Of a DNA stretch of 64,000 nucleotides, positions 48,083 through 58,851 are shown in pieces. Location: NCBI RefSeq assembly GCF_041435115.1, contig NZ_CP108046.1, positions 7,006,001 through 7,070,000 on the forward strand, given 5' to 3'. This DNA is from Streptomyces sp. NBC_00289. Lineage in GTDB: Bacteria; Actinomycetota; Actinomycetes; Streptomycetales; Streptomycetaceae. The notes below the pieces were generated by a model. That model searched no databases, was not told the origin of the DNA, and was given only the letters and a program-made list of their open reading frames with translations. Both the position numbers and the translations under genes were made by a program. Positions within the stretch are counted from its first letter, which is position 1, and each line of letters starts with the position of its first letter.

Positions 48083-49249
48083 ATGCGTCATTTCGGGCAC
48101 ATCGCCCCGGAGGTGCGGCAGCGCCTGTTCCACCGGGAGCCCTGCGAGTTCACGGCGGACTCCTCGGCCCGGCTGCTGGCCGTGGCCCTGGGCGCCACGC
48201 TGTACAGTCCGGCCACGCGGCCGCGGCTCGCCGACGACATCGTCAAGCAGACCGGACACGGTGTGGTCTCGATGGTGCTGTGCCTGGAGGACTCGATCGG
48301 GGACGAGGACGTCGCGGACGGCGAGGAGAACCTCGTACGGCAGCTCACGGAACTCGCCGCCCGCCCCGGAACCGACCTCCCGCTGCTGTTCATCCGGGTC
48401 CGGGTGCCCGAGCAGATCCCCGACCTCGTACGGCGGCTCGGTCCCGCCGTCCGCCTGCTGTCCGGGTTCGTGATGCCGAAGTTCACCGAGGAGCGTGGCA
48501 TCCCGTTCCTGGAGGCCATGGCGAGCGCCGAGGCCGAGAGCGGCCGGCGCCTGTTCGGGATGCCGGTGCTCGAGTCGCCCGAGCTGCTGTACCGGGAGTC
48601 GCGGGTGGAGACCCTGGAGGGCATCTCCCGCGCCGTCGACAAGTACCGCGACCGGGTGCTCGCGCTGCGCCTGGGCGTCACCGACTTCTGCTCCTCCTAC
48701 GGCCTGCGCCGGGCCCCCGACATGACGGCCTACGACGTCCAGGTCGTCGCCTCCGTGATCGCCGACGTGGTGAACATGCTGGGGCGGGCCGACGGCACCG
48801 GCTTCACGGTGACCGGGCCGGTGTGGGAGTACTTCCGCGTGCAGGAGCGCATGTTCAAGCCACAGCTGCGCCGCAGCCCCTTCCTGGACGGGAAGGCCGA
48901 GGAACTGCGCGAGGCGCTGCTGGAGCACGCCATGGACGGACTGCTGCGCGAGATCTCCCTCGACCGGGCCAACGGCCTGCTCGGCAAGACCTGCATCCAC
49001 CCCACCCACGTACTCCCCGTGCACGCACTGTCCGTGGTCAGTCACGAGGAGTTCAGCGACGCCCAGGACATCCTGCGGCCGGAACGCGGCGGTGGGGGTG
49101 TACTGAGGTCGGCGTACACGAACAAGATGAACGAGGTGAAGCCGCACCGGGCCTGGGCCGAGCGCACCGTGCTCCGTGCCGAGGTCTTCGGGGTGGCCAA
49201 CGAGGACATCGGCTTCGTGGAGCTCCTCGCCGCCGGAATTCCCGGCTGA
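48083..49249 (+). CDS. HpcH/HpaI aldolase / citrate-lyase-beta-like enzyme of the Ter biosynthetic module
   Basis: A 388-aa TIM-barrel C-C lyase of the CitE-like superfamily. Features are YSPATRPRLADDI, MVLCLEDSIGDEDVADGEENL (acidic metal residues), LLFIRVRVPEQI, GFVMPKFTEERG, PVLESPELLYRE and TCIHPTHVLPVHALSVVSHEEF, matching the malyl/citramalyl-lyase-like proteins seen in ter loci. GGGGAG lies 5 nt before the ATG. It is followed after 25 bp by the PRTase fusion and then a HAD phosphatase, so these three form an operon. Published genome analysis of Ter systems (Anantharaman, Iyer and Aravind) proposed that such sets make a nucleoside-like metabolite; the reaction here is inference. Confidence 0.85.
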   Translation: MRHFGHIAPEVRQRLFHREPCEFTADSSARLLAVALGATLYSPATRPRLADDIVKQTGHGVVSMVLCLEDSIGDEDVADGEENLVRQLTELAARPGTDLPLLFIRVRVPEQIPDLVRRLGPAVRLLSGFVMPKFTEERGIPFLEAMASAEAESGRRLFGMPVLESPELLYRESRVETLEGISRAVDKYRDRVLALRLGVTDFCSSYGLRRAPDMTAYDVQVVASVIADVVNMLGRADGTGFTVTGPVWEYFRVQERMFKPQLRRSPFLDGKAEELREALLEHAMDGLLREISLDRANGLLGKTCIHPTHVLPVHALSVVSHEEFSDAQDILRPERGGGGVLRSAYTNKMNEVKPHRAWAERTVLRAEVFGVANEDIGFVELLAAGIPG

Positions 49250-49274
49250 AGAACCGCTGAACACCAAGGGACGC

Positions 49275-51722
49275 ATGAACAACGCAGGAAACAACGGGGT
49301 GTGGTCGGGCAGCTGGGTCGCCGAGCGGCTCGGAGTCGAGCTCGCGGGCGACGACGAGCTGGCCTGCCTGCTGGGGATGGCGCTGCGCCGCAACCCCAAG
49401 CGGGCGCATCTGCTCGTGTCGAACGTGCTCGGCAAACACGTACCGCAGTCACCGTCCGTGGTCTACGGCCACGGGTTCGCGCTCGGCCGCCGGGTGCGCG
49501 AGCTGCTCGGCGCCGAGCAGGCCCGCAAGGCGGTCGTCCTCGGGTACGCGGAGACCGCCACCGGTCTCGGCCACTCGGTCGCCGACGGGGTGGGCCTCGC
49601 CCCCTACCTGCACTCCACCCGCCGCCCGGTCCCGGGCGTCGCCACGGCGGGCGGCTTCGAGGAGTCCCACTCGCACGCCACCTCGCACCTGCTGCTGCCG
49701 GAGGACCCGGCGCTGCTGGTGGGCGACGGCCCGCTGGTGCTGGTCGACGACGAGTTCTCCACCGGCAACACCGTCCTGAACACGATCCGGGACCTGCACG
49801 AGCGCTACCCGCGCGGGCGCTACGTCGTGGTCGCCCTCGTCGACATGCGCTCGGCGGCCGACATGGACCGGCTCGCAGACTTCGCGCGGGAGATCGGCGC
49901 CCGGGTCGACCTGGTGGCGGCCGCCTCGGGCCACGTACGGCTGCCGGAGGGCGTGCTGGAGAAGGGGCAGGAGCTGGTCGCGCGGTACGAGCCGGCGACG
50001 GCGCCCGCCGAACCGCCCTACGGCCGGGTCGCGCGCGTCGACCTGTGCTGGCCGCGCGGCCTGCCCGACGGCGGCCGGCACGGGTTCACGCCCGCGCACC
50101 GCGCCCGCCTGGAGGGCGCCCTGCCCGCCATGGCCGCGCGGCTCGCCGAGGCGCTGCCCGCCGACGCCTCGCGGGTGCTCGTGCTCGGCTTCGAGGAGCT
50201 GATGTACGCGCCGCTCAGGCTGGCCCGTGAGCTGGAGCAGGTCGCGCACGCCGAGGTGCGCTACTCCACCACGACCCGCTCACCCGTCCTCGCGGTCGAC
50301 GACCCCGGCTACGCGATACGCAGCCGCATCGTCTTCCCCGCCCACGACGACCCCGCCGACGGCCCCGGCGAGCGCTACGCCTACAACGTGGCGGGCGCCG
50401 GCTTCGACGCCGTGGTCGCCGTCGTCGACTCGGTCGCCGACACCCCCGCACTGCACGCGCCGGACGGCCTGCTGTCCCGGCTCGCCGCGCACGCCCCGCA
50501 CGTCCTGCTCGCGGTCGTGCCCTCGTACGCGCCCGAGCCCCTGCACGTACCCGAAAGGCCCTCCATGCTGCCCGAGCCCCTTCGCGGCCCCGCCTTCTCC
50601 TCGTATCCGCCCGAGGAGGTCGGCTGGCTGCTGCGCGACCTCTCGGACGTGACGCTGGAGGCGCCGACCGAGGAGCGCGAGGAGGCCATCCAGAGCGGGG
50701 GCGCGCACTACGCGGAGTCGCTGCCGGTGGAGTACCAGCCCAGCGAGCAGTACCAGGAGCTCTTCCACACGGCGCTGGAGGCGTCCGCGGCGCGGATCGC
50801 GCAGGCGGTGGGCGCGGTCACCGAGCTCGTGCTCGCCGAGCGTTCCCCCCGGCCGGTCCTGGTGTCGCTGGCCCGCGCGGGAACCCCTGTCGGCGTCCTG
50901 ATGCGCCGCTGGGCCCAGTTCCGGCACGGCCTCGACCTGCCGCACTACGCCGTCTCGATCGTGCGCGGCCGCGGTATCGACGCCAACGCGCTGCGCTGGC
51001 TGGCCGCCCACCACGACCCGGGAGACGTCGTCTTCGTCGACGGCTGGACCGGCAAGGGCGCCATCACCCGCGAACTCGCCGAAGCGGTCAAGGAGTTCGA
51101 GGCGTCCGACGGCATCACCGGCTTCGACCCGGAGATCGCGGTACTCGCCGACCCGGGCTCGTGCGTGCGGACGTACGGCACCCGCGAGGACTTCCTCATC
51201 CCCTCCGCCTGTCTCAACTCCACGGTGTCCGGCCTGATCTCGCGGACCGTGCTGCGCGCGGACCTGGTCGGCCCGCACGACTTCCACGGCGCGAAGTTCT
51301 ACCGCGAACTCGCCGGCGCCGACGTGTCGGTGGACTTCCTGGACGCCGTGGCCGCCCGGTTCCCGGAGGTCGCGGAGGCCGTCGACGCACAGGCCAAGGA
51401 ACTGCTGTCGGCCGACCGCGCCCCGACCTGGGAGGGCTGGGCGGCCGTCGAGCGCATCAGCGAGGACCACGGCATCCACGACGTGAACCTCGTCAAGCCC
51501 GGCGTCGGCGAGACCACCCGGGTGCTGCTGCGCCGGGTGCCGTGGAAGATCCTGGCGCGGGCCGGAGCGGGCGCAGACCTGGACCACGTACGGCTGCTGG
51601 CCGATCAGCGGGGCGTACCGGTGGAAGAGGTCGACGGACTGCCGTACACCTGCGTGGGGTTGATCCACCCCAGGTACACGCGCGGCGCCACCGGTGCCGA
51701 CGGCAGGGCGGTGACGGTCTGA
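49275..51722 (+). CDS. PRTase-TRSP protein fused to StiP/PELOTA-type half (Ter-associated)
   Basis: An 815-aa fusion. The first half is a phosphoribosyltransferase with the PRPP loop LVLVDDEFSTGNT (Asp158/Asp159), preceded by VYGHGFALGRRVRELLG, and then a TRSP-like domain (VLVLGFEELMYAPLRLA ... TRSPVLAVDDPGYAI). The second half (from ~residue 500) begins GAHYAESLPVEYQPSEQYQELF and contains VLVSLARAGTPVGVLMRR and VVFVDGWTGKGAITREL, a second PRPP-like loop. It ends in a ~100-residue PELOTA-like RNA-binding region. The second half corresponds to the family once named PRTase_1 and now StiP cysteine protease. In other ter loci these are usually separate genes. ATG 49275 with AAGGGA is clear. Confidence 0.8.
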   Translation: MNNAGNNGVWSGSWVAERLGVELAGDDELACLLGMALRRNPKRAHLLVSNVLGKHVPQSPSVVYGHGFALGRRVRELLGAEQARKAVVLGYAETATGLGHSVADGVGLAPYLHSTRRPVPGVATAGGFEESHSHATSHLLLPEDPALLVGDGPLVLVDDEFSTGNTVLNTIRDLHERYPRGRYVVVALVDMRSAADMDRLADFAREIGARVDLVAAASGHVRLPEGVLEKGQELVARYEPATAPAEPPYGRVARVDLCWPRGLPDGGRHGFTPAHRARLEGALPAMAARLAEALPADASRVLVLGFEELMYAPLRLARELEQVAHAEVRYSTTTRSPVLAVDDPGYAIRSRIVFPAHDDPADGPGERYAYNVAGAGFDAVVAVVDSVADTPALHAPDGLLSRLAAHAPHVLLAVVPSYAPEPLHVPERPSMLPEPLRGPAFSSYPPEEVGWLLRDLSDVTLEAPTEEREEAIQSGGAHYAESLPVEYQPSEQYQELFHTALEASAARIAQAVGAVTELVLAERSPRPVLVSLARAGTPVGVLMRRWAQFRHGLDLPHYAVSIVRGRGIDANALRWLAAHHDPGDVVFVDGWTGKGAITRELAEAVKEFEASDGITGFDPEIAVLADPGSCVRTYGTREDFLIPSACLNSTVSGLISRTVLRADLVGPHDFHGAKFYRELAGADVSVDFLDAVAARFPEVAEAVDAQAKELLSADRAPTWEGWAAVERISEDHGIHDVNLVKPGVGETTRVLLRRVPWKILARAGAGADLDHVRLLADQRGVPVEEVDGLPYTCVGLIHPRYTRGATGADGRAVTV

Positions 51723-52909: not shown

Positions 52910-53128
52910 GCGCTCAGGTTAGCGGGAACGACCGCCCTGGAGAGTTGCGTGCCTCACAGCCTCTGCTTCTGACCGCACTCCGATCGAACTATTCGAAAAA
53001 ATCGCTGGTAATTTGTGGATGCCGCGAGGAGGCCGCAAGGCCGGGGGAAAACAGGGGGTTCGCAGCCGAGACGTCGGCCGCTGCATCTACCCGCGCGAGC
53101 AGCAAAAGTGCGGAGGGAGACAGCAGTC

Positions 53129-56100
53129 GTGACCGAGGCAGGGCAGGGGGAGGGCGCCGAGGGGAACCGTGGGTCGCAGGGCCACGGGCCGGCACCCAGG
53201 TGGTCCCGGCGTCGACCCATGGAGGACGACGCCCCGGCCGAGGCCCCCACGGAGCCGGACGCACCGCCGCCGGCGGACGCGACCATGCAGCTCAACGTGG
53301 ACGCGCTGCGGGCGAATCCGGCGCTGCGGATGGAGTCCTCCGAGCCGGCCGACCCGCCCAAGAAGGCCGCCCGGCCTGGGGATGCCGGACTGTCGAGGGA
53401 AGCGGCCCGGGCGAGGGATGCCGGACTGTCGAGGGAAGCGGCCCGGGCGAGGGAAGCCGGACTGTCGAAGGAAGCTGCCCGGGCGAGGGAAGCCCGTCCG
53501 TCGAGGGAAGCAGCCCAGCCCAGGAAAGCCGCCCCGCCGAGGGAAGCCGACCCGTCGCCGCAGGCCGATCCGCCGCCGCCGGCGGACGCGACCATGCAGC
53601 TCAACGTCGATGCGCTGCGGGCGAATCCGGCGCTGCGGATGGAGTCCTCAGAGCCGGCCGACCCGCCGAAGAAGGCCGCCCGGCCAGGGGAAGCCGGTCC
53701 GTCGAGGGAAGGCGGTCTGTCGAGGGAAGCCGGTCCGTCGAGGGAAGGCGGCCTGTCGAGGGAAGCCGCCCAGCCCCGGAAAGCCGCCCAGCCCAGGCAA
53801 GCCGTCCCGCCGAGGGAAGCCCAGCCTCGGAAGGCAGCCCAGCCAAGGAAAGCCGTCCCGCCGAGGAAGGCTGCCCCGTCGCCGCAGGCCGACCCGCCGC
53901 CGGCCGCGGACGCGACCATGCAGCTCAACGTCGACGCACTGCGGGCGAACCCGGCGCTGCGGATGGAGTCCTCCGAGCCGGCCGACCCGCCGCGTAAGGC
54001 CGCCCGGCCCGGGGAAGCGGTCCCGCCGAGGAAGGCCGCCCCGCCCAGGAAAGCCGACCCGTCGCCGCAGGCCGACCCACCGCCGGCCGCGGACGCCACC
54101 ATGCAGCTCAAGGTCGATGCGCTGCGGGCACTCCATCCCGAACCCCCGCAACCCGGCGGCCGGCCCACCCGGCACAAGACGCCGGCGCCCTCCCTGCGCG
54201 CTCGCGTCACCGCGGCCGTCGGGCCGCGGCTGGACCCGCTGATCACCGGCCTGACGCCGCTCGTGCACCTCGCGGCGCCGTACGCCCGCAAGCTGCGGCC
54301 GCTGTACCCGCGGCCCGGCCGCGTCGGCTGGCGCCGCTGGCTGCCGTCCTGGCGGCAGTCGCTGGGGGCCGTTCTGACGTCCGTCGGGCTGAGCAGCCTG
54401 CTGCTGGTCGTCGCGTACGCCGCCACGGACATACCGGACAACCTGAACACGTATGCCACCCAGCAGGACAACGTCTTCTTCTGGTCCGACGGCACCCCGA
54501 TGGCCCGTACCGGCTGGGTGCAGCGACAGGCGATGCCGCTCAAGGACATACCGGAGGACGTCCGCTGGGCGGTACTGGCCGCGGAGAACGCGAGCTTCTA
54601 CTCGGACCCGGGCATATCCGTCAGCGGCATCGGCCGCGCCCTGTGGCGCACCGTGGGCGAGGGCGACACCCAGGGTGGTTCCACCATCACGCAGCAGTAC
54701 GTGAAGAACGTCTATCTGAACCAGAACCGGTCGGTGGGCCGCAAGTTCACCGAGGCGATGATCTCCCTCAAGCTCGACAACAAGTTGAGCAAGGACAAGA
54801 TCCTCGAGGGCTACCTCAACACCAGCTGGTTCGGCCGCGGTACCTATGGCATGCAGCGCGCCGCCCAGGCCTACTACGGCAAGGACGTGAGCGAGCTCAA
54901 CGTGAGCGAGGCCGCCTTCCTCGCCTCCCTGCTCAAGGGCGCGGGCCTCTACGACCCCGTCCTCAGCAAGGCCAACCACGACCGGGCCGTCGAGCGTTGG
55001 TCGTGGATCCTCGACCGCATGGTGGACCTCGGCAAGCTGTCGCCCACCGAACGCGCCAAGTACAGGACGTTCCCCGAGCCGCTCAAGCAGTCGCGGACCT
55101 ACGACACCGGCAAGCAGAGCGACTACCTGGTCGAACTCGCCACCCAGTACGCCAAGAAGACCGCGCACATCTCCGACAAGGACTTCGACCTGGGCGGCTA
55201 CCAGATCTACACCACCTTCGACCGCAAGCGGGAGGCCGAGCTCACCGACGCCGTGGCCAAGGCCCGCAAGGACGTCAGGAAGAGCGACCCGGACAGGGCC
55301 AAGAGCACTCACTACGGGGCCACCTCGGTCTCCGCCGACGGACGGATCCTCGCCGTCTACGGCGGCCCGGACCACCGTACGCAGGGCTACAACGAGTCCA
55401 ACGCGACCACCGTCTCGGCGGGCTCCGCCTTCCTGCCCTTCGTCTACGCCGCCGCCCTGGAACACGGGGTCACCAAGACCCGCGACGGGACCACCACACC
55501 GGTCACCCCGGAGTCGGTCTACAACGGTGACGACAACGTCCCGGTCACCACACCCGAGGGGCCGTACTGGGACCGCTCCGGCAAGGTGGTCGCCGCCCGC
55601 AACGACGGCAAGAAGTCGTGGGGCCGGATCAGTCTGCGCACGGCGCTGGCCCAGTCGGTGAACACGCCGTTCATGCAGCTCGGAATGGACACCGGCCTGG
55701 CCAACGTGCGCAAGACCGCCGAGGCGGCCGGCCTCCTGCCCTCCAGTTTCGGGCGGCAGGTGCCCGAACTGTCCATGGGCAGCGCCACCCCCAGCGCGCT
55801 GCGGATGGCGAGCGGTTACGCCACCTTCGCCGCCGGCGGCCGGCACACCGAGCCGTACTCGGTCAGCCGGATCACCCGCAACGGCTCCGGCATCGCACTG
55901 GTCCGGCCGAAGCCGACCAGGGCGGTGAGGGCCGAGACGGCCGGCTCGGTCACCGAGGGGCTCCGGGACGCCTTCCGTAGTGCCCACCCCGGCGACGCGC
56001 CCGCCGCCGCGGACGTGGCGGGCAAGACCGGCACCACGCAGGACGACACCGCCGCCTGGTACGTCGGCACGAACAAATCCGTGTCGACCGCCGTCGTCGT

Positions 56101-56254
56101 CTACCGGATCAATCTGAGCAAGAGCCTGCAACCCCTGCCGCTGAAGGGCGTGGCCGGAACACCGGCCCTCCCGGCCGGCCCGTCCGGAGGGGAGGAAACC
56201 TCGCCTGACGTCCCCTACGGAATCTGGTCGAGCGCCATGAGCCCACTTGGCTGA
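53129..56254 (+). CDS. Class A penicillin-binding protein with repeat-built cytoplasmic tail and SxxL transpeptidase motif
   Basis: A 1041-aa bifunctional-type cell-wall synthase. Residues 1-407 are cytoplasmic and repetitive: four DATMQLxVDALR modules start at residues 50, 153, 261 and 322, separated by 12-residue SREAARAR-type repeats. A membrane helix spans ~412-434. The GT51 glycosyltransferase follows, with Glu486 in AAENASFY, GGSTITQQYVKN and LNTSWFGRGTYGMQRAAQAYYGK. The transpeptidase domain has Ser766 in GSAFLPF, where the SxxK lysine is Leu769, S843-V-N, and K966-T-G. The GT half looks active; the TP half probably is not. GTG 53129 has GGAGGGAG upstream. Confidence 0.92.
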   Translation: MTEAGQGEGAEGNRGSQGHGPAPRWSRRRPMEDDAPAEAPTEPDAPPPADATMQLNVDALRANPALRMESSEPADPPKKAARPGDAGLSREAARARDAGLSREAARAREAGLSKEAARAREARPSREAAQPRKAAPPREADPSPQADPPPPADATMQLNVDALRANPALRMESSEPADPPKKAARPGEAGPSREGGLSREAGPSREGGLSREAAQPRKAAQPRQAVPPREAQPRKAAQPRKAVPPRKAAPSPQADPPPAADATMQLNVDALRANPALRMESSEPADPPRKAARPGEAVPPRKAAPPRKADPSPQADPPPAADATMQLKVDALRALHPEPPQPGGRPTRHKTPAPSLRARVTAAVGPRLDPLITGLTPLVHLAAPYARKLRPLYPRPGRVGWRRWLPSWRQSLGAVLTSVGLSSLLLVVAYAATDIPDNLNTYATQQDNVFFWSDGTPMARTGWVQRQAMPLKDIPEDVRWAVLAAENASFYSDPGISVSGIGRALWRTVGEGDTQGGSTITQQYVKNVYLNQNRSVGRKFTEAMISLKLDNKLSKDKILEGYLNTSWFGRGTYGMQRAAQAYYGKDVSELNVSEAAFLASLLKGAGLYDPVLSKANHDRAVERWSWILDRMVDLGKLSPTERAKYRTFPEPLKQSRTYDTGKQSDYLVELATQYAKKTAHISDKDFDLGGYQIYTTFDRKREAELTDAVAKARKDVRKSDPDRAKSTHYGATSVSADGRILAVYGGPDHRTQGYNESNATTVSAGSAFLPFVYAAALEHGVTKTRDGTTTPVTPESVYNGDDNVPVTTPEGPYWDRSGKVVAARNDGKKSWGRISLRTALAQSVNTPFMQLGMDTGLANVRKTAEAAGLLPSSFGRQVPELSMGSATPSALRMASGYATFAAGGRHTEPYSVSRITRNGSGIALVRPKPTRAVRAETAGSVTEGLRDAFRSAHPGDAPAAADVAGKTGTTQDDTAAWYVGTNKSVSTAVVVYRINLSKSLQPLPLKGVAGTPALPAGPSGGEETSPDVPYGIWSSAMSPLG
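53270..54130. repeat. In-frame repeats inside the PBP gene
   Basis: Four copies of a ~90-bp module encoding DATMQLNVDALRANPALRM begin at 53276, 53585, 53909 and 54092, the fourth truncated. Copies 1-3 are nearly identical at nucleotide level over ~100 bp. Shorter 36-bp degenerate units lie between copies 1 and 2. Recombination between copies could change tail length. Confidence 0.9.
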
Positions 56255-56296: not shown

Positions 56297-57583
56297 ATGA
56301 AGCCTCGTACGAAGGCGCCATCCGGCCGGCGCCGGAGAGCCCGCGCACCCCGCCGCACCCCCCGGCCGGGGTTCATAACCCTGGCCGCTCTCCTCGTCGT
56401 GGCCTCCCTGGTCGCGGGCTACCTGGCGCTGAACCGCTCGGACAGCACCACGCCCACCGCGTCCTCCGGGGGCAAGGGCGCCTCGGACAAGGCGAGCAAA
56501 GAGCCCGTGTGGGACGGCAGAACGAAGGTGCTGGGGGACGGCTCCACGTCGTACACCGGCCCGCAGAGCGGCGAGCTGAAGGCCGTACCGCTCAAGCCGG
56601 GTGAGAAGCCTCCCCAGTTCGTCGTGTTCTCCTGGGACGGCGCGCTGCAGGGCGACGACGAACTCTTCTCGCACTACCGGGAGCTGGCGAAGGAGTACAA
56701 CGCCCACATGACCTTCTTCCTCACCGGCATCTACCTGCTGCCGAAGAGCAAGAGGGACCTCTACTCCCCACCGATGCACTCCAAGGGCTCCTCGGCGATC
56801 AGCTTCCCGACCGACGAGCACATCCGCACCACGCTGGAGCAGCTCGGCGAGGCGTGGAAGGAGGGCAACGAGATCGGCACCCACTTCAACGGCCACTTCT
56901 GCGGCGCCAAGGGCGGCGGCGACTGGAGCGTCCAGGAGTGGAAGAGCGAGATCGACCAGTTCTACTCCTTCGTGGAGAACTGGAAGACCAACACCGGCTA
57001 CAAGGACATCGACCCGCTGCCCTTCGACTTCAAGAAGGAGGTCACCGGCGGCCGCGCGCCCTGCCTGGAGGGCCAGGCGAACCTGCTGAAGGCCGCCAAG
57101 AGCTACGGCTGGCGCTACGACGCCAGTTCCACCGGTGACTTCCAGATATGGCCCAAGAAGAAGAACGGCCTGTGGGACTTCCCGCTCCAGCTGCTCCCCT
57201 ACGACGGCGGCAAGTACCAGGGCCTGTCCATGGACTTCAACTTCCTCTACAACCAGTCCGAGGGCGAGACCCAGGGCGACGCGGTCAAGTTCCCGCAGTG
57301 GGAACAGGAGACCGTCGACTCCTACATGGCCGGCTTCAACCGCGTCTACTACGGCAGCCGGGCCCCGCTGTTCATCGGAAACCACTTCGAGGACTGGAAC
57401 GGCGGCATCTACATGAAGTCCATCGACCAGGTCATCAAGAGCGTGTGCTCCAAGAAGGGCGTCAAGTGCGTGTCCTTCAGGGAACTGGCCGACTGGATGG
57501 ACGTACAGAAACCGGAGACCCTGGAACGGCTGCGCAGCCTCGACCCGGCGCAGTCTCCCGCCTGGTCGACGGTCGTGGAGTAA
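56297..57583 (+). CDS. NodB-like polysaccharide deacetylase, membrane-anchored
   Basis: A 428-aa protein. A basic N-terminus (RRRRARAPRRTPRPG) precedes a single membrane helix, FITLAALLVVASLVAGYLAL. The catalytic domain begins near residue 100. The metal Asp (Asp114 in FSWDGAL) and the H-x3-H pair (His196, His200 in GTHFNGHF) match NodB motifs 1 and 2, though motif 1 shows one Asp instead of the usual pair. LFIGNHFEDWNGGIYM contributes the C-terminal His. Likely substrates are acetylated glycans such as peptidoglycan or teichoic material. It follows the PBP gene by 42 bp and is probably cotranscribed. Confidence 0.8.
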   Translation: MKPRTKAPSGRRRRARAPRRTPRPGFITLAALLVVASLVAGYLALNRSDSTTPTASSGGKGASDKASKEPVWDGRTKVLGDGSTSYTGPQSGELKAVPLKPGEKPPQFVVFSWDGALQGDDELFSHYRELAKEYNAHMTFFLTGIYLLPKSKRDLYSPPMHSKGSSAISFPTDEHIRTTLEQLGEAWKEGNEIGTHFNGHFCGAKGGGDWSVQEWKSEIDQFYSFVENWKTNTGYKDIDPLPFDFKKEVTGGRAPCLEGQANLLKAAKSYGWRYDASSTGDFQIWPKKKNGLWDFPLQLLPYDGGKYQGLSMDFNFLYNQSEGETQGDAVKFPQWEQETVDSYMAGFNRVYYGSRAPLFIGNHFEDWNGGIYMKSIDQVIKSVCSKKGVKCVSFRELADWMDVQKPETLERLRSLDPAQSPAWSTVVE

Positions 57584-57681: not shown

Positions 57682-58851
57682 GTGAAGTCAAGGAAATTGA
57701 GCCGTACGCGGCGTCGCGCGACCATACTCGGGGCGGCCGCTGCCTCCGTCGTCGCCGGAGTGGCGCTGCTGCCCAACTGGAGCGCCGGTGCGGCCGTCGT
57801 CGACGACCCCACGGTCGACGCGCAGACCAAGGCCACCTTCCAGCGGCTGGCCGACGCGGTCTTCACCGACCGCACGGACGCCCTGGTCGAGGGCAACCAG
57901 GGGGGCCGCGGCAAGCAGCTGACGGACGGCTTCTCCGGTGACGTCAAGGTGTCCTCGGGCACCGCCCGGACCGAGGACGCGGCCCTGTCCACGCTGGGCC
58001 GGCGCAAGGACACCCTGGCCAAGGCCGGCGAGAAGTACAGCAAGGCCACCACCACCGTCACCCTGAACGCCACGCGCGTGACGGGCCGTACGGCCAAGGC
58101 CGCGGTCACCGAGACCACGACCCTGACCTACGCGCAGGCCCGCGGCGGCGCGCCGAAGTCCACCGGCTTCCAGGCCCAGCACGAGCTGACCTTCAAGGCC
58201 GACGAGCGGGGCACCTGGCAGCTCACCGACGTCGAGGACACCGACCAGGGTGGTCTCGCGGTGAACACGCTCTCCAAGCCGGTGTCCGTCAAGGCGACCA
58301 CGGCGGACGACACCATGCCGAACGCCCCGCGCGCGGCGACCACCCGGAACCCGGTCGCGGTTCCGAAGGCCGGTACCGCCTACGACTACAAGGCGATGGC
58401 GACCTACGCCGAGAAGTACTGGAACGTCTACAACACGGCCTACCCGAACTACAACGGCCACGCGGACGGCGGCGACTGCACCAACTTCGTCAGCCAGTCC
58501 CTGAAGGCGGGCGGCTGGAAGCACGTCCCCGGCTACGTGTACGACTACACCAAGTGGTTCGGCAACGCCGACATCCAGTCGGACTCGTTCGTCGGCGTCA
58601 ACGAGTGGTCCTGGTTCGCCCAGAACTCCAAGCGGACCACCAGCCTCGCCAACGTCTTCCAGCTCGAGGTCGGCGACGTCCTCCAGATGGACTTCGACAA
58701 GGACGGGTCCAAGGACCACACGATGATCGTCACGTACAAGAGCGGCGGCGTGCCCTACGTGACCTACCACTCCAACAACACCTACCGCAGGTCGGTGGCG
58801 AGCCTCGTCGCCTCCTACCCGAACGCGGCGTTCTACGCGTACCGCACCTGA
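57682..58851 (+). CDS. Secreted amidase-domain (Amidase_6) protein
   Basis: A 389-aa exported protein with a Tat/Sec-type N-terminus (RRRATILGAAAASVVAGVALL ... SAGA). Residues ~45-210 form a beta-rich region of unknown role. The C-terminal ~155 residues are a putative NlpC/P60-like amidase: Cys266 in GGDCTNFVSQSLKAGGW and His346 in KDHTMIVTYK. YNTAYPNYNGHADGGDC and YHSNNTYRR are family-typical. It may hydrolyse cell-wall peptide or amide bonds. GTG 57682 follows GAGGGG. It is near the PBP and deacetylase genes on the same strand, suggesting envelope remodelling. Confidence 0.88.
   Translation: MKSRKLSRTRRRATILGAAAASVVAGVALLPNWSAGAAVVDDPTVDAQTKATFQRLADAVFTDRTDALVEGNQGGRGKQLTDGFSGDVKVSSGTARTEDAALSTLGRRKDTLAKAGEKYSKATTTVTLNATRVTGRTAKAAVTETTTLTYAQARGGAPKSTGFQAQHELTFKADERGTWQLTDVEDTDQGGLAVNTLSKPVSVKATTADDTMPNAPRAATTRNPVAVPKAGTAYDYKAMATYAEKYWNVYNTAYPNYNGHADGGDCTNFVSQSLKAGGWKHVPGYVYDYTKWFGNADIQSDSFVGVNEWSWFAQNSKRTTSLANVFQLEVGDVLQMDFDKDGSKDHTMIVTYKSGGVPYVTYHSNNTYRRSVASLVASYPNAAFYAYRT

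Follow-up and report, generated by a model that had tools for sequence, protein, structure and literature searches.

Here, we describe a class A penicillin-binding protein (PBP) of Streptomyces sp. NBC_00289 that has lost the lysine of the SxxK motif in its transpeptidase domain, as has every member of its clade that we examined, and whose gene lies beside a gene for a CE4-like protein. The window analyzed is a stretch of 64,000 nucleotides (contig NZ_CP108046.1, positions 7,006,001 to 7,070,000). Our results suggest that the protein is probably a glycosyltransferase-only class A PBP, in which a pseudo-transpeptidase serves as a binding domain and works with the CE4-like partner. Class A PBPs are usually treated as bifunctional, and beta-lactams as blocking one of the two halves. 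This clade, present in 112 of 295 Streptomyces genomes and in four other genera, seems to keep the polymerase, retire the cross-linker and fix a new surface.

The gene and its parts are as follows; residues are numbered from the GTG at 53129, which is preceded by GGAGGGAGA.

53129 to 56254, forward strand: class A PBP-like protein with a putative pseudo-transpeptidase domain, 1041 amino acids (open frame, Pfam)
53129 to 54313, forward strand: long Ala/Pro-rich N-terminal tail, presumably cytoplasmic (translation)
54350 to 54424, forward strand: predicted membrane helix, residues 408-432 (helix 9-33 of the model, hydrophobic sequence)
54491 to 55021, forward strand: GT51 glycosyltransferase domain with Glu486 and GGSTITQQ (PF00912)
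54674 to 54697, forward strand: GGSTITQQ of the GT51 domain
55331 to 56098, forward strand: putative pseudo-transpeptidase domain, residues 735-990 (partial PF00905 match, predicted fold)
55421 to 55441, forward strand: GSAFLPF at the SxxK site, with Leu769 encoded by CTG at 55433-55435
55550 to 55576, forward strand: clade-specific loop TPEGPYWDR, residues 808-816 (the most conserved nine-residue window of the domain)
55655 to 55663, forward strand: SxN motif, Ser843-Val-Asn
56024 to 56032, forward strand: KTG motif, Lys966-Thr-Gly (altered in most orthologues)

The architecture is that of a class A PBP, with a membrane anchor and a GT51 domain carrying the catalytic Glu followed by a C-terminal transpeptidase fold; the helix at residues 408-432 would sit in the membrane. 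Third-position GC of the frame is 0.89. Pfam Transgly (PF00912) scores 195.3 bits (cut-off 27) over profile positions 2-177 of 178, and Pfam Transpeptidase (PF00905) scores 65.8 bits with a match that begins only at profile position 69. The score with TIGR02074 (PBP1A family) is 380.5 bits, under the curated cut-off of 508.75.

The sequence-only reading had reported GSAFLPF in place of a canonical SxxK motif, and the codons GGC TCC GCC TTC CTG CCC TTC bear this out, with Ser766 and Leu769. It had named close relatives as the place to look for a lysine, and we found none at this site in four sets, which overlap in part (L099 and L248, for example, are apparently one gene): the 120 database proteins nearest to the one in the window, which is itself included (P0001), as is a close relative from S. 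avermitilis (P0054); 55 flanked Streptomyces loci, drawn from 113 clade copies; 20 loci from four other genera, fetched out of 55 such matches; and five named loci, two titled Kitasatospora and one cut by a contig end. In this order, which is kept for the counts below, Lys occurs in 0/120, 0/55, 0/20 and 0/5. The site is instead occupied by L 64, E 35, T 8, Q 7, M 5 and V 1 in the nearest proteins, by T 26, L 10, A 8, Q 7, E 2, M 1 and G 1 in the Streptomyces loci, by T 11 and A 9 in the other genera, and by T in all five named loci. Because Thr and Ala prevail in more distant members, Leu769 is probably a later replacement inside a clade that was already without the lysine. The clade-wide absence also disposes of a sequencing error at 55433-55435, a doubt raised beforehand, and of a strain-specific mutation.

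Canonical relatives keep the motif. The genome has five class A PBP genes, and the other four (L001 and L003-L005) have SxxK, SxN and KTG; orthologues of L004 were sampled in 31 of the same genomes, and all 31 retain the three motifs. Among the best 80 of 592 relatives from named genomes, five belong to the clade and 75 lie outside it. Lys is present in 74 of these 75, the sole exception being L156, which has Arg at the site and an eroded domain. All 56 proteins without the lysine group together (100/100) in a 65-protein tree, and the resulting clade is joined at 98/88 by its sister group L071-L073, which keeps SxxK and has lost SxN and KTG; the canonical L005, L074 and L075 come next, and long branches (L001, L003, L004 and others) make the deeper order uncertain. 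L105, judged by its motifs only, resembles L071-L073 in this opposite decay. These proteins may represent either a second pseudo-transpeptidase lineage or another branch of the same event.

The second main observation concerns the gene that starts 42 nucleotides downstream of the PBP gene.

56297 to 57583, forward strand: CE4-like protein (polysaccharide deacetylase fold), 428 amino acids

A helix at the N terminus of the protein resembles a membrane anchor, and the predicted model shows a NodB-type fold. SWDG and HFNGH are invariant in 40/40 members of the partner family, of which 29/40 are matched by PF01522 at E <=10 (alignment A2). We surveyed 295 Streptomyces genomes, this one included, with thresholds of at least 691 bits for the PBP clade (next group 522) and at least 590 bits for the partner group (next group 503); four PBP and six partner candidates were scored per genome, and extra copies could be missed. 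The PBP clade was found in 112 genomes (113 copies), and the partner group in exactly the same 112. The two genes are adjacent in 110 of them (80 co-directional, 29 convergent and one divergent), with 41-992 nucleotides between the matches. In the other two genomes (G099 and G220) the pair is split over different contigs, and three of the four matches lie within 200 bases of a contig start. The partner is beside the PBP in 54/55 flanked Streptomyces loci and in 20/20 loci of other genera; among the named loci (best 80 of 592), it accompanies 5/5 clade members and 0/75 others. It is absent beside the other class A PBPs at five Streptomyces control loci (L071-L075).

Mere inherited synteny, with no functional meaning, is an unlikely explanation of this pairing. 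It would account for the single arrangement in 80 of 110 pairs and for the wider synteny, including the StiP gene, among close relatives (13/55 loci), but the pair persists in three different orientations (which, by our reading of the tree, took at least three changes) while the outer neighbours change. Co-occurrence with the PBP is complete (112/112), whereas paralogues of the partner, about 51-57% identical among the matches listed, occur in 182/183 genomes without the pair; a member of the CE4-like family is present in 294/295 genomes. In this genome the two CE4-like paralogues (L179:8637-9905 and L180:7761-9092) lie elsewhere, presumably near cytochrome-c-biogenesis-like genes and near an acetyl-CoA-synthetase-like gene, names that we read from sequence.

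The glycosyltransferase half had been described as looking complete, and it is also conserved: Glu486 and GGSTITQQ are present in 120/120, 55/55 and 20/20, that is, in every sequence covering them. Columns with at least 90% conservation across 74 canonical proteins number 32 in the glycosyltransferase domain and 40 in the transpeptidase domain, of which the clade keeps 31 and 21, respectively. Five invariant changes within residues 458-634 are specific to the clade (567, 577, 605, 626 and 630); for example, Trp567 and Arg577 stand where canonical proteins have Tyr and Ala. Such changes would suit a protein that is a scaffold as a whole, with its glycosyltransferase domain inactive too. We regard this as decidedly unlikely given the conserved active site, the near-complete set of canonical columns and the slow evolution of this half, whose ratio of non-synonymous to synonymous substitution rates (dN/dS; NG86, 208 close pairs) is 0.23, as compared to 0.41 in the transpeptidase half.

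In the transpeptidase half, the sequence-only reading had called SVN and KTG intact, which holds for the protein of the window but not for the orthologue group. Most members have another residue in place of the KTG threonine (retained in 38/120, 20/55, 5/20 and 0/5), and the SxxK serine has become Thr in 3/120, 26/55 (plus Gly in one), 12/20 and 2/5. Since both residues vary in the clade, the acylation machinery is not under selection. Among the motifs of an active D,D-transpeptidase, the window protein has SxN and K(T/S)G and lacks the SxxK with its activating lysine. A transpeptidase that is still active through another general base, such as the SxN serine or the KTG lysine, is very improbable. 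The motifs left in the window protein, the SxN largely kept in the clade and the intact fold of the predicted model (predicted local distance difference test (pLDDT) 89.9) are in its favor, as is the conclusion of Ogawara 2016 (PMC6273383) that sequences without SxxK "can function as PBPs". However, the serine is Thr or Gly in 27/55 Streptomyces loci and Thr in 12/20 loci of other genera, the KTG threonine is mostly gone, and free variation at the lysine site (entropy 2.13 bits) means that no substitute is under selection there.

The same drift bears on the suggestion, also made from the sequence, of a beta-lactam sensor; a domain that binds beta-lactams and regulates the glycosyltransferase is, we consider, highly improbable. 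The pocket fold is retained in the model, but a covalent sensor needs a nucleophile and an activator, and both drift in the clade, in which KTG is not kept either. The constant neighbour is CE4-like, and no search was made for a paired regulator.

The transpeptidase half has also evolved faster relative to the glycosyltransferase half. Over 465 genome pairs, the ratio of transpeptidase to glycosyltransferase distances comes to 1.90 for the clade and 1.16 for the one canonical paralogue used for this comparison, L004, and the former ratio is 1.64 times the latter (bootstrap 1.46-1.82). Our rate argument leans on this within-protein ratio and not on the dN/dS values, which in the canonical paralogue are 0.43 (glycosyltransferase) and 0.46 (transpeptidase), at a dS that differs from that of the clade. 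The most conserved stretch of the domain is TPEGPYWDR, which ranks 1 of 248 nine-residue windows in the clade. TPEGPYW is found in 55/55, 120/120, 25/25 and 19/20 clade sequences (overlapping sets) and in 0/108 other loci (3 sister, 30 canonical and 75 named non-clade). The closest canonical relatives carry a loop of similar length and variable sequence at the same place, so that TPEGPYWDR is not an insertion relative to them. Clade-specific columns outside the loop may reflect only shared ancestry. The transpeptidase half is thus relaxed at its catalytic residues yet not evenly decaying. With an intact predicted fold and its strongest conservation in a loop specific to the clade, the domain looks repurposed. 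A decaying relic, that is, a redundant PBP under relaxed selection and heading for loss, is hardly credible: the faster transpeptidase half and the patchy presence (112/295 genomes) would fit, but the clade is widespread in Streptomyces and four other genera, no internal stop occurs in any listed clade match, the transpeptidase dN/dS is 0.41, the new loop is near-invariant and the partner co-occurs throughout.

Several observations weigh against a glycosyltransferase-only PBP that works with a CE4-like partner. Ser766, SVN and KTG persist in the window protein, the SxN asparagine is retained in 120/120, 50/55, 19/20 and 5/5, and the sequence leaves room for residual reactivity of the transpeptidase of the window protein. 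The transpeptidase dN/dS of the clade is not above that of the canonical paralogue (0.41 and 0.46), one of the 20 other-genus loci (L256) is without the exact TPEGPYW loop, and the loop columns, in which the canonical set has mostly gaps, also show little entropy in the L004-orthologue control (rank 10 of 248). As the genomes share ancestry, they do not provide independent counts of the pairing, and genome G210 carries two pseudo-transpeptidase PBP copies, of which L041 is paired and the second, L042, has no CE4-like gene beside it. The model of the partner is only moderately confident (pLDDT 61.6). CE4 motifs comprise an Asp-His-His metal triad and the catalytic Asp of motif 1, in which we take the first Asp of the pair to be the catalytic base. 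The partner differs from CE4/NodB deacetylases (e.g., 3qbu HP0310 and 3rxz) in scoring under the Pfam Polysacc_deac_1 (PF01522) cut-off (15.5 vs 23.1 bits) and in its motif 1, FSWDG, where Trp replaces the first Asp, as it also does in both paralogues of this genome. The partner may thus not be a normal deacetylase.

The combination of a GT51 glycosyltransferase with a pseudo-transpeptidase, first put forward from the sequence, is supported by it and is fixed in the orthologue group. In the mechanism that we favor, the GT51 domain would polymerize lipid II outside the membrane, as the conservation of its active site suggests. The SxxK lysine would have been lost at the base of the clade, most simply once, and the serine and KTG would have been left to drift, so that the C-terminal domain would be a pseudo-enzyme which keeps its fold and cannot acylate peptide or penicillin. 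This retired domain would be kept because it serves a different function; binding is the most likely one, and the near-invariant TPEGPYWDR loop would mark it. The CE4-like neighbour is the most likely partner; coupled to the polymerase physically or functionally, it would act on its strands from the same side of the membrane, presumably by deacetylation. The product would be a glycan, probably a modified one, that its own polymerase leaves uncross-linked. A more tentative and rather doubtful extension is a dedicated two-gene system of Streptomycetaceae, in which the retired pocket and TPEGPYWDR would hold the partner or the nascent strand, and the glycan would be modified during synthesis and left uncross-linked by its maker, that is, an undescribed type or layer of wall polymer. 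The clade thus offers a testable case of the reuse of a pseudo-enzyme domain and, for bacteria with complex walls, a candidate route to glycan that is modified or uncross-linked; together with its CE4-like neighbour, it points to a mode of cell-wall synthesis or modification that is as yet unstudied. It also cautions that not every class A PBP of Streptomyces counts as a penicillin target.

Class A PBPs without SxxK in Streptomyces are already in print. Ogawara 2016 reports that 13 of 100 class A PBPs from 24 Streptomyces species are without the motif; the domain order of Streptomyces class A PBPs is the same as in the window protein. SZN_18682 is on that list and very likely belongs to this clade, since the nearby tag SZN_18687 (P0196) is a homologue of the partner gene. 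In the text consulted there is no mention of the partner gene, of the TPEGPYW loop or of a pseudo-transpeptidase shared by a whole clade. We found no report of any of the three in the literature searched, in which subscription papers are thinly covered, and a joint search for six of Ogawara's locus tags returned Ogawara 2016 as the only paper. The GT51 and transpeptidase folds of E. coli PBP1b and M. tuberculosis PonA1 superpose on the model of the window protein; in contrast to these proteins, the SxxK lysine is absent here, and the clade does not conserve the catalytic serine or KTG. Monofunctional glycosyltransferases (TIGR02070) are likewise predicted to polymerize without cross-linking, but the window protein carries a full transpeptidase fold, and its glycosyltransferase part matches this family with 112.9 bits, under the cut-off of 182.65.

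A frequent third neighbour follows the CE4-like gene.

57682 to 58851, forward strand: Amidase_6 (PF12671) protein (Pfam)

A homologue of this protein is nearby in 32/55 clade loci, in several arrangements, a weaker link than that of the CE4-like partner. Upstream of the PBP gene, we looked for a sigma-E promoter, an idea taken from a paper on the sigma-E regulon (PMC6767563). The strict motif occurs in 5/55 upstream regions, as compared to a mean of 2.48 (maximum 6) after shuffling and 3/50 control stretches. In the window itself, no more than a relaxed match is present, at 52925. Such a promoter is not supported.

The N-terminal tail of the PBP carries ADATMQL[N/K]VDALRA four times, continued in three of them by NPALRMESSEP. 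Of the 120 nearest proteins listed, 81 have DxT[MV]xL in this tail, and the repeat could be a phosphothreonine-type docking motif. Further upstream, at 49176-51722, a single frame of 848 amino acids combines PRTase_2, TRSP, StiP and PELOTA domains, which belong to proteins of tellurite/stress clusters.
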